Below, piece after piece: positions 17,501 to 19,846 of a stretch of DNA of 36,019 nucleotides (position 1 is the stretch's first letter; the number at the start of each line of letters is the position of its first letter). The position numbers and the translations under genes are program-made. The notes under the pieces were generated by a model. The model searched no databases. It was given only the letters and a program-made list of their open reading frames with translations, and had not been told where the DNA came from. The stretch is taken from the NCBI GenBank assembly GCA_003331875.1, contig QOQA01000017.1:1-36019 (forward strand), given 5' to 3'. The stretch comes from Cryomorphaceae bacterium. Its GTDB lineage: Bacteria > Bacteroidota > Bacteroidia > Flavobacteriales > Flavobacteriaceae.

Positions 17501-17508
17501 TAAATTTG
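17501..17508 (+). promoter_or_regulatory. -7 element TAAATTTG upstream of the PLP gene pair at 17529
   Basis: Exact TAnnTTTG match, 20 nt before ATG 17529. Confidence 0.5.
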
Positions 17509-17528
17509 CTGACAGATTATGTTCTTGT

Positions 17529-18569
17529 ATGAAACAAGATTTTGATGTACATGAAAATATACTTTCCCTCATAGGAAAAACACCCCTAATAAGATTAAAT
17601 AAAGTAACTAAGGGGATAGCTGGTTCACACTTTTGTAAATATGAAGCTTACAACCCTGGACATTCTAACAAGGATAGAATTGCTCTACACATAATTAAAA
17701 ATGCTGAAGAATCAGGTTTAATTGATAATGATTCAACTATAATTGAGACTAGTTCAGGTAATACTGGATTCAGTCTTTCAATGATTGCAATGGTTAAAGG
17801 ATATAAATGTATTGTTGCTGTATCCTCAAAATCATCACCTGATAAAATTGATATGTTGAAATCTATGGGTGCAAAAGTCTATGTTTGTCCATCAAATGTA
17901 CCTGCTGATGACAGTCGATCCTATTATCAAGTTGCAAAAAGACTAAATGAAGAGATAAAAGATTCTTTTTATGTAAATCAATACTTTAATCATTTGAATA
18001 TAGATGCTCATTATCAAACAACAGGACCAGAAATATGGAATCAAACAAATGGTAAAATAACCCATCTCGTGGCTAGTAGCGGAACTGGTGGTACAATTTC
18101 CGGAATTGGTCGATATTTAAAAGAAAAAAATAGAGGCATTAAAATTATTGGTGTGGATGCTTATGGTTCAGTGCTTAAAAAATTCCATGAAACTGGTGAG
18201 TTTGATGAATCTGAGATTTACCCTTATAGAATTGAGGGAATGGGAAAAAATTTAATTCCAACCTCGACTGATTTTAACGTAATTGATCATTATGAAAAAG
18301 TTACTGATGAAGAAAGTGCACATTGTTCAAGAGATATTGCAACTAAAGAGGGTTTATTTGTTGGATATACATCGGGAGCTTGCTTACAGGCTTTAAAACA
18401 ATTGAATAAAAAAAATGTATTTGAAAAAAATAGTTGTGTTGTATCAATTTTTTGTGATCATGGATCGAGATACATGAGTAAAATATATAGTGATAAATGG
18501 ATGGAAGAGCAGGGCTTTAATTTAAAAACTAGTAAAGAACAATTTTCTTCAATAGAATATATAAAGTAA
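17529..18569 (+). CDS. PLP-dependent cysteine synthase/cystathionine beta-synthase-like enzyme; candidate cysteate synthase
   Basis: [24 protein letters not shown] (PLP-lysine region), [29 protein letters not shown]. Functional refinement is from adjacency to an AOS-family gene. Confidence 0.8.
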
Positions 18570-18572
18570 AAG

Positions 18573-19823
18573 ATGTCTGATTTATTTGAAAAATTTAGTA
18601 AAAGTATGGGCCCACTAGGTAAATGGGCTAGTATAGCTGAAGGTTATTTTGTGTTTCCAAAATTAGAAGGCAAGATTTCTAATAGGATGAAATTTAATGG
18701 AAAAGAAGTTATTACTTGGAGTGTCAATGACTACTTAGGACTTTCTAATCATCCGGAGGTTCGAAAAATTGACTCTGAGGCAGCTGAAGAGTATGGTTCT
18801 GCGTATCCAATGGGTGCCAGAATGATGTCAGGACACACTTCTATGCATGAAAAATTAGAAAACCAACTTGCAGATTTTGTAAATAAAGAAAGTGCATATG
18901 TGCTTAATTTTGGTTACCAAGGTATTTTATCAATCGTTGACACTCTAGTGTCTAAAAATGATGTTATAGTTTATGATGTTGATGCGCACGCTTGTATAGT
19001 TGATGGTGTTAGATTACACCTTGGAAAAAGGTTTACTTTTAAGCATAATGATATAGAAAGCCTAGTAATCAATCTTAAAAGAGCTGAAAAAATCGTAGAA
19101 AAAACTGGTGGAGGTATCTTAGTGATTTCTGAGGGGGTTTTTGGAATGCGAGGTGAACAAGGAAAAATTAAGGAAATTGTAAAACTTAAAAATGATTATA
19201 ATTTTAGACTTCTTGTTGATGACGCACATGGTTTTGGAACCTTAGGAGAAACTGGTTCTGGTGTAGGTGAGGAGCAAGGCGTTATGGATGAAATTGATGT
19301 ATACTTTGCCACATTTGCAAAGTCTATGGCATCCACCGGGGCATTTGTTGCTGGCTCTAAACAAGTTATCAAATTTCTAAAATATAACATGCGTTCGCAG
19401 ATGTTTGCCAAATCATTGCAAATGCAGCTAGTAGTAGGAGTCTTAAAAAGATTAGAAATCCTTAAAAATGAACCAAATCACAAAGCAAAACTGTGGGATA
19501 ATGTTGAAATACTTCAAAATGGATTAAAGGATAAAGGATTTGATATTGGTAAAACACAAAGTTGTGTTACACCCGTTTTTCTTAAAGGTGATGTCCCTGA
19601 AGCAATGGTTTTAGTTAAAGATCTAAGAGAAAAATATAATATTTTTTGCTCTATTGTTGTCTACCCAGTAATACCTAAAGGTTTAATTCTTCTTAGATTA
19701 ATTCCAACAGCCACTCACACTGTTGAGGACATCAAAGAAACATTAAATTCATTCTCTGAAATTAGAGAAAAATTAGCTGGTGGATATTATAAAAAAATAT
19801 CAGAAAAATTTAAAGCAGACTGA
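18573..19823 (+). CDS. Alpha-oxoamine synthase family PLP enzyme (SPT/KBL/AONS-like); candidate cysteate C-fatty-acyltransferase
   Basis: WSVNDYLGLSNHPEV, SGHTSMHEKLE, FGYQGILSIVDTLV, VDDAHGFGTLGETGSGVGEEQG, TFAKSMASTGAFVAG; starts 3 nt after the preceding stop. Confidence 0.82.
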   Translation: MSDLFEKFSKSMGPLGKWASIAEGYFVFPKLEGKISNRMKFNGKEVITWSVNDYLGLSNHPEVRKIDSEAAEEYGSAYPMGARMMSGHTSMHEKLENQLADFVNKESAYVLNFGYQGILSIVDTLVSKNDVIVYDVDAHACIVDGVRLHLGKRFTFKHNDIESLVINLKRAEKIVEKTGGGILVISEGVFGMRGEQGKIKEIVKLKNDYNFRLLVDDAHGFGTLGETGSGVGEEQGVMDEIDVYFATFAKSMASTGAFVAGSKQVIKFLKYNMRSQMFAKSLQMQLVVGVLKRLEILKNEPNHKAKLWDNVEILQNGLKDKGFDIGKTQSCVTPVFLKGDVPEAMVLVKDLREKYNIFCSIVVYPVIPKGLILLRLIPTATHTVEDIKETLNSFSEIREKLAGGYYKKISEKFKAD

Positions 19824-19838
19824 TATTTAAATTTTTGT

Positions 19839-19846
19839 TACATTTG
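19839..19846 (+). promoter_or_regulatory. -7 element TACATTTG, 7 nt before pyrR ATG 19854
   Basis: Exact TAnnTTTG match. Confidence 0.5.

Follow-up and report, generated by a model that had tools for sequence, protein, structure and literature searches.

A compact capA-capB gene pair for probable sulfonolipid synthesis in a streamlined flavobacterium, with candidate genes for the two later steps

We propose that two adjoining genes, capA and capB, at positions 17529-19823 of a 36,019-base contig (hereafter the window, meaning the whole stretch of DNA that was analysed) form a two-gene transcription unit for sulfonolipid synthesis. Family models, structure matches, a diagnostic lysine and two trees make it highly probable that the pair encodes a sulfonolipid cysteate synthase and a cysteate fatty-acyltransferase, which is how the original prediction had read it. 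In the pathway that we suggest, CapA would convert O-phosphoserine and sulfite into cysteate, and CapB would convert cysteate and acyl-ACP/CoA into 3-ketocapnine and CO2; a KdsR-like SDR encoded elsewhere in the genome (G000:C27:19313-20116) would then reduce 3-ketocapnine to capnine, and a tandem GNAT (G000:C3:12022-13146) would N-acylate capnine to give a sulfobacin-type lipid. The activities, the lipid itself and which of the last two steps comes first are inferences, while sequence family, tree position, active-site residues, linkage of the genes and their co-occurrence are directly observed. The pair adds another instance of the already known CapA-CapB system, and what this analysis contributes beyond it is likely genes for steps three and four.

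Results

Gene layout and candidate promoters

The gene capA, for a PLP fold-type II protein of 346 aa, occupies 17529..18569 on the forward strand, and capB (sulA), for a protein of 416 aa, occupies 18573..19823 on the same strand; both open reading frames start with ATG. The capA stop codon (18567-18569) is followed by AAG and then by the ATG of capB, giving the 3-nt gap that had been described between a cysteine synthase/CBS-fold enzyme and an alpha-oxoamine synthase (AOS). Pfam places the two products in PALP (PF00291, 4e-76) and Aminotran_1_2 (PF00155, 2e-35), respectively. By profile match, the gene 5' of capA encodes a threonine aldolase-type beta-eliminating lyase, and a pyrR-pyrB unit, whose pyrR was likewise assigned by profile match, lies 3' of capB. 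No reductase was recognised among the identified genes of the window, in agreement with the earlier expectation that the enzyme of the third step is encoded outside it.

The Bacteroidota -7 promoter consensus is TAnnTTTG. About 20 bp 5' of the capA ATG, at 17501..17508 on the forward strand, TAAATTTG matches this consensus and is a candidate -7 box of the capA-capB unit; it is the element that had been proposed to set the pair apart from the upstream threonine aldolase gene. Taken alone within the window, TAAATTTG is weak promoter evidence. TAnnTTTG is found within 100 bp upstream of 6 of the 33 window genes against ~2.9 expected (Poisson P = 0.08), and its density is roughly twofold higher between genes than overall (counting both strands, 10 of the window's 69 sites fall in its 2,456 intergenic bases), an excess that base composition could partly explain. 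The candidate box gains weight from its conservation within the genus, where most genomes keep a TAnnTTTG match before capA in one of two spellings, TAAATTTG in those near the window and TATTTTTG in more distant ones. A further match, TACATTTG (19839..19846, forward strand), lies 5 bp before the pyrR open reading frame as a candidate -7 box of the pyrR-pyrB unit, and since it precedes pyrR, capA-capB reads as a unit of its own with a boundary downstream.

Identity of CapA and CapB

The superfamilies of the two proteins are shared, and Pfam alone is unable to separate CapA and CapB from CBS and SPT. The genes could hence be read as serving cysteine/cystathionine metabolism together with an SPT-type or Kbl/BioF-type reaction, with a sphingoid base or some other amino ketone as the product and not a sulfonolipid. 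Against the NCBIfam models, CapA scores 595.8 bits on NF053679 (CysteaSynCapA), 368 on the CBS model TIGR01137 and 262 on CysK. The first value lies 4.2 bits under the NF053679 cut-off of 600; CapA proteins from the capA-capB clusters of sister families reach 474-555 bits on this model, so that the clade extends well below the cut-off and a shortfall of 4 bits speaks little against CapA membership. The nearest solved chain is PDB 9k2p, deposited only as a PLP-dependent beta-subunit protein (PDB entry), at 468 bits against 254 for the best CBS structure.

The same genome has a separate CBS-like gene (L007, contig C6), whose product is 53% identical to CapA and scores 451 bits on the CapA model and 423 on the CBS model. 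A tree of 39 proteins sets the window protein in the CapA branch (98/94) and this paralog in another (99/96); the latter branch also holds a protein whose match to the CBS model extends past the catalytic domain. The CapA-type residues I55, S82, M85, N241 and T281 are present in the window protein, whose activity would be that of the characterised family. A CBS or CysK identity for CapA is rejected on the model scores and the tree.

The evidence for CapB is of the same kind. The protein matches two structures over its own full length, 28eh at 658 bits, deposited as a cysteate-C-fatty acyltransferase (PDB entry), and 7u7h, the Alistipes SulA, at 561 bits, with SPT structures at 249; on the SPT model it reaches only 302 bits, where the cut-off is 640. 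The AOS active-site set is complete in CapB (N52, H139, D216, H219, the PLP lysine K250 and R375) and corresponds by alignment, with an offset of one, to N53, H140, D217, H220, K251 and R376 of SulA. Lys281 is reported as the only active-site difference between SulA and SPT, which has alanine there (Radka et al., PMC9304779), and K280 of CapB aligns with this SulA-diagnostic lysine. The position holds lysine in 71/72 aligned rows; the one row with alanine is consistent with the SPT-like protein of genome G048, a protein that scores best on the SPT model (545 bits). In a maximum-likelihood tree of 41 AOS proteins, CapB, 28eh and SulA form a 100/100 clade on a long branch, and SPT, Kbl and BioF lie outside it.

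An SPT, Kbl or BioF identity for CapB is rejected on model scores, key residues and tree, and its activity, too, would be that predicted from the characterised family. The two trees, the diagnostic lysine and the matches to models and structures all speak against the reading as CBS plus SPT, Kbl or BioF, which seems to us very improbable. The phylogeny that had been suggested as a check on the original prediction thus sets the AOS protein with 28eh and SulA, and the PALP protein with CapA-type sequences apart from the genome's own CBS-like paralog, and the assignment as cysteate synthase and cysteate acyltransferase stands.

We note three observations on these families beyond the window. A capA-like gene adjoining capB in genome G036 (L086 7442-8467 = L029 2871-3896) is only 42% identical to the window capA, and its product sits on a very long branch (1.77), while the CapA of G418, from the same genus, is a normal one. 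Large plasmids of two Cytophagales, Bernardetia and Aureibacter, carry CapB-type genes (L270 4998-6242 and L271 4998-6245), and the products of these genes, 62% and 59% identical, are placed inside the CapB clade. PAPS reductase/CysD (PF01507) gave no match in the window's own genome (75% complete) and was present in 14/14 control genomes; if this absence is real, the sulfite for CapA would need a source other than assimilatory sulfate reduction.

Host and distribution

The assembly comprises 1.08 Mb at an estimated 75% completeness, and the window has 30% G+C. Its nearest named relatives, judged by a gene outside the pair, are uncultured flavobacterial single-cell genomes and metagenome-assembled genomes of marine type, a habitat that is partly read from record names. 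The uncultured host is apparently a genome-streamlined marine flavobacterium, and these features fit the guess that had been made from the DNA alone.

We surveyed 250 genomes of one family, taken from its named relatives to be the Flavobacteriaceae, namely the window's own and 249 at >=90% completeness. CapB is found in 243/250 and CapA in 237/250, so that capA-capB is a family-wide trait and ordinary in the Flavobacteriaceae. All 237 CapA-positive genomes are CapB-positive, and CapA occurs in 0/7 CapB-negative genomes (Fisher 1.5e-10; this test and those given below for the SDR and the GNAT against CapB ignore shared ancestry, and the seven CapB-negative genomes come from six genera).

What is particular here is compaction. 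The gap between capA and capB measures ~36-322 bp elsewhere in the family; in the window's streamlined genus it has shrunk to -1 to 3 bp. In larger genomes the threonine aldolase gene, sometimes with prfB, lies a few kilobases 5' of capA, and its place directly 5' of capA in the window would hence be what is left of an ancestral arrangement from which intervening genes were lost. CapB is present in 20/23 genomes of the genus, the window's included, and most of these are incomplete, which suggests that sulfonolipids matter to the cell; a genome-reduced, apparently open-ocean flavobacterium keeps the genes for their synthesis. Sulfonolipids have been linked to gliding motility, to rosette induction in choanoflagellates and to mammalian immune signalling (PMC10191378, PMC3463246, PMC11211663), and because of these links the distribution of their producers has ecological weight.

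In five families (f6, f8, f13, f14 and f15; L072, L074, L075, L077 and L079), capB has no adjoining capA, and the PALP proteins found in the members searched are CBS-like or more distant; these families may use another cysteate synthase, as reported for Alistipes (PMC10191378). A typical Flavobacteriaceae block of capA, capB, GNAT and threonine aldolase genes is filed under Candidatus Rokubacteria (L229) and probably represents a misbinned contig.

A candidate 3-ketocapnine reductase

Four PF00106 SDRs were found in the window's genome, 75% complete as it is. A search for an SDR outside the window, proposed together with the original prediction, led to a plausible reductase among them at G000:C27:19313-20116, which is our candidate for the third step (CapC/KCR). 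Its best model is the 3-ketodihydrosphingosine reductase KdsR, at 242 bits and so below the cut-off of 400, and it is the only one of the four for which this is the case; the other three give weaker scores, against general or unrelated SDR models. Orthologs occur in 236/243 CapB-positive and 2/7 CapB-negative genomes, one of these two at threshold (Fisher 2e-6).

The C27 gene is not adjacent to capB in its own genome. Clusters of the form capA-SDR-capB are seen in families f3, f9 and f10, and SDR-capB-GNAT in f7; in the SDR tree these operon SDRs form a different subfamily from the C27 SDR, and f6, f8, f13 and f15 use a third. The presence of three subfamilies across families agrees with the published observation that several different SDRs of one genome reduce 3-ketocapnine, none of them linked to the capA-capB-type pair (PMC11211663). 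That several SDRs of one genome can do so, and that capB is adjoined by other SDRs in different families, gives some room to the alternative that the true reductase is the SDR on contig C5, C14 or C1, or one encoded in the missing 25% of the genome. We consider this possible but the less probable of the two, given that KdsR is the best model for the C27 SDR only and that its orthologs track CapB over 250 genomes. Our preferred reading, a plausible one, is that the C27 SDR is probably the 3-ketocapnine reductase.

In the capA-SDR-capB cluster of genome G045, a Cupin_8/JmjC-like protein (L071 4402-5268) is inserted between capA and the SDR, and it might modify a pathway intermediate.

A candidate capnine N-acyltransferase

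N-acylation of capnine has been described without naming an enzyme (review PMC10191378), and we found no published gene for a capnine N-acyltransferase in the open-licence literature. A gene for a protein of 372 aa is convergent with capB in many Flavobacteriaceae, and the ortholog in the window's own genome lies on contig C3 (G000:C3:12022-13146). The protein has no family match in Pfam or NCBIfam, and a sequence search of the PDB returned nothing above noise. An AlphaFold2 model, built on a 95%-identical protein (L167; pLDDT 88.5), has a tandem GNAT fold (7q3a, E 1.6e-14), and the sequence aligns from end to end with E. coli YghO (24.7% identity, 2e-26). Through YghO it is tied to Caulobacter CC_1154, which is needed to form dihydroceramide and has been proposed as the N-acyltransferase of that step; yghO is listed with CC_1154 in that function, as its ortholog (PMC9386255).

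The distribution of the GNAT follows that of CapB. It occurs in 229/243 CapB-positive against 0/7 CapB-negative genomes (Fisher 1e-8), absence in one of the latter, G446, being deduced from its not appearing in the positive list; as 14 CapB-positive genomes do not have it at the threshold used, it is not universal. In a wider set of 60 relatives, seven genomes from other genera than the window's had no CapB match at full strength, and none of the seven had the GNAT. In 26 of 80 named loci, capB lies within 10 kb of the GNAT. Relatives of the GNAT adjoin SPT-like genes in G048 and on a Rubrobacter plasmid, and lie within several kilobases of such genes on Sphingomonas and Rahnella plasmids. The additional AOS proteins sampled in Flavobacteriaceae are Kbl or BioF, not SPT, and CapB is therefore the only long-chain-base synthase seen in those genomes. 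Because the GNAT occurs with CapB instead of SPT, its acceptor would be capnine and not a sphingoid base.

From homology, fold, linkage and co-occurrence, we lean toward this YghO/CC_1154-family GNAT being the capnine N-acyltransferase. It is also conceivable that the pair makes cysteate and 3-ketocapnine, that the pathway ends in free capnine or some different derivative, and that the GNAT serves some other N-acyl lipid, such as an aminolipid. The function of the GNAT is predicted from sequence and fold, the 14/243 CapB-positive genomes without it fit such a separation, and other N-acyl amines are made in Bacteroidota via separate acyltransferases (PMC10191378). Weighing against this, every sampled CapB-negative genome is without the GNAT, in many genera the gene and capB are convergent, in f7 it joins the SDR and capB, and relatives of the family stand beside or near SPT-like genes in the four cases above. 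In addition, the N-acylated sulfobacin A has been reported, by tentative MS identification, for a cultured marine flavobacterium, Leeuwenhoekiella (PMC9859067), and members of this genus carry the GNAT. We thus regard a different role for the GNAT as rather unlikely.

Should the GNAT indeed act on capnine, the base acylated by this ceramide-synthase-type enzyme in the Flavobacteriaceae would be a sulfonate and not a sphingoid base. The candidate genes for steps three and four make the missing N-acylation step testable in culturable relatives.

A second, distant GNAT subfamily (G043 type; L153, L154, L155 and L156) is divergent to an SDR in f6, f8 and f15, all of which are CapB-positive. An open reading frame of ~262 aa beside capB in the same three families was considered as a possible acyltransferase and dropped, since by eye it resembles a repeat-containing lipoprotein of the BamD kind; similar-sized open reading frames in f13 and f14 are unrelated to it. 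On the plasmid of Rubrobacter radiotolerans (Actinomycetota; L267 3707-7074), genes for an AOS, a YghO-like GNAT and an NAD(P)-dependent oxidoreductase follow one another in an arrangement like that of a compact ceramide-type cluster.

Discussion

The closest precedent is the CapA-CapB-CapC capnine pathway of Ornithobacterium and Capnocytophaga (Liu et al. 2022, as cited in PMC10191378 and PMC11211663). As far as that pathway is described there, the window pair is like it in combining a CapA-type PLP cysteate synthase with CapB, with the same predicted chemistry in the same order, and differs from it in being one very compact unit, with a 3-nt gap and no adjoining SDR. Chryseobacterium gleum has the same two enzymes, a cysteate synthase and a CFAT, and its reductase is likewise unlinked; for this species 33 SDR homologs are reported (PMC11211663), against the four PF00106 SDRs of the window's genome.

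With SulA of Alistipes finegoldii (alfi_1224; 7u7h, PMC9304779), CapB shares the AOS fold, the catalytic lysine and the lysine at position 281 in a 561-bit match over the whole protein, whereas the cysteate of Alistipes reportedly comes from an archaeal-type synthase and not from CapA (PMC10191378). The cysteate-C-fatty acyltransferase of PDB 28eh/28fa is the closest solved structure (658 bits) and lies inside the Flavobacteriaceae CapB clade, and no difference from the window CapB was seen in the diagnostic residues. The GNAT, finally, resembles the bacterial ceramide synthases CerS/bCerS (CC_1154; E. coli YghO) in its full-length similarity to YghO, its tandem GNAT fold and its association with an AOS; unlike them, it occurs with CapB instead of SPT.
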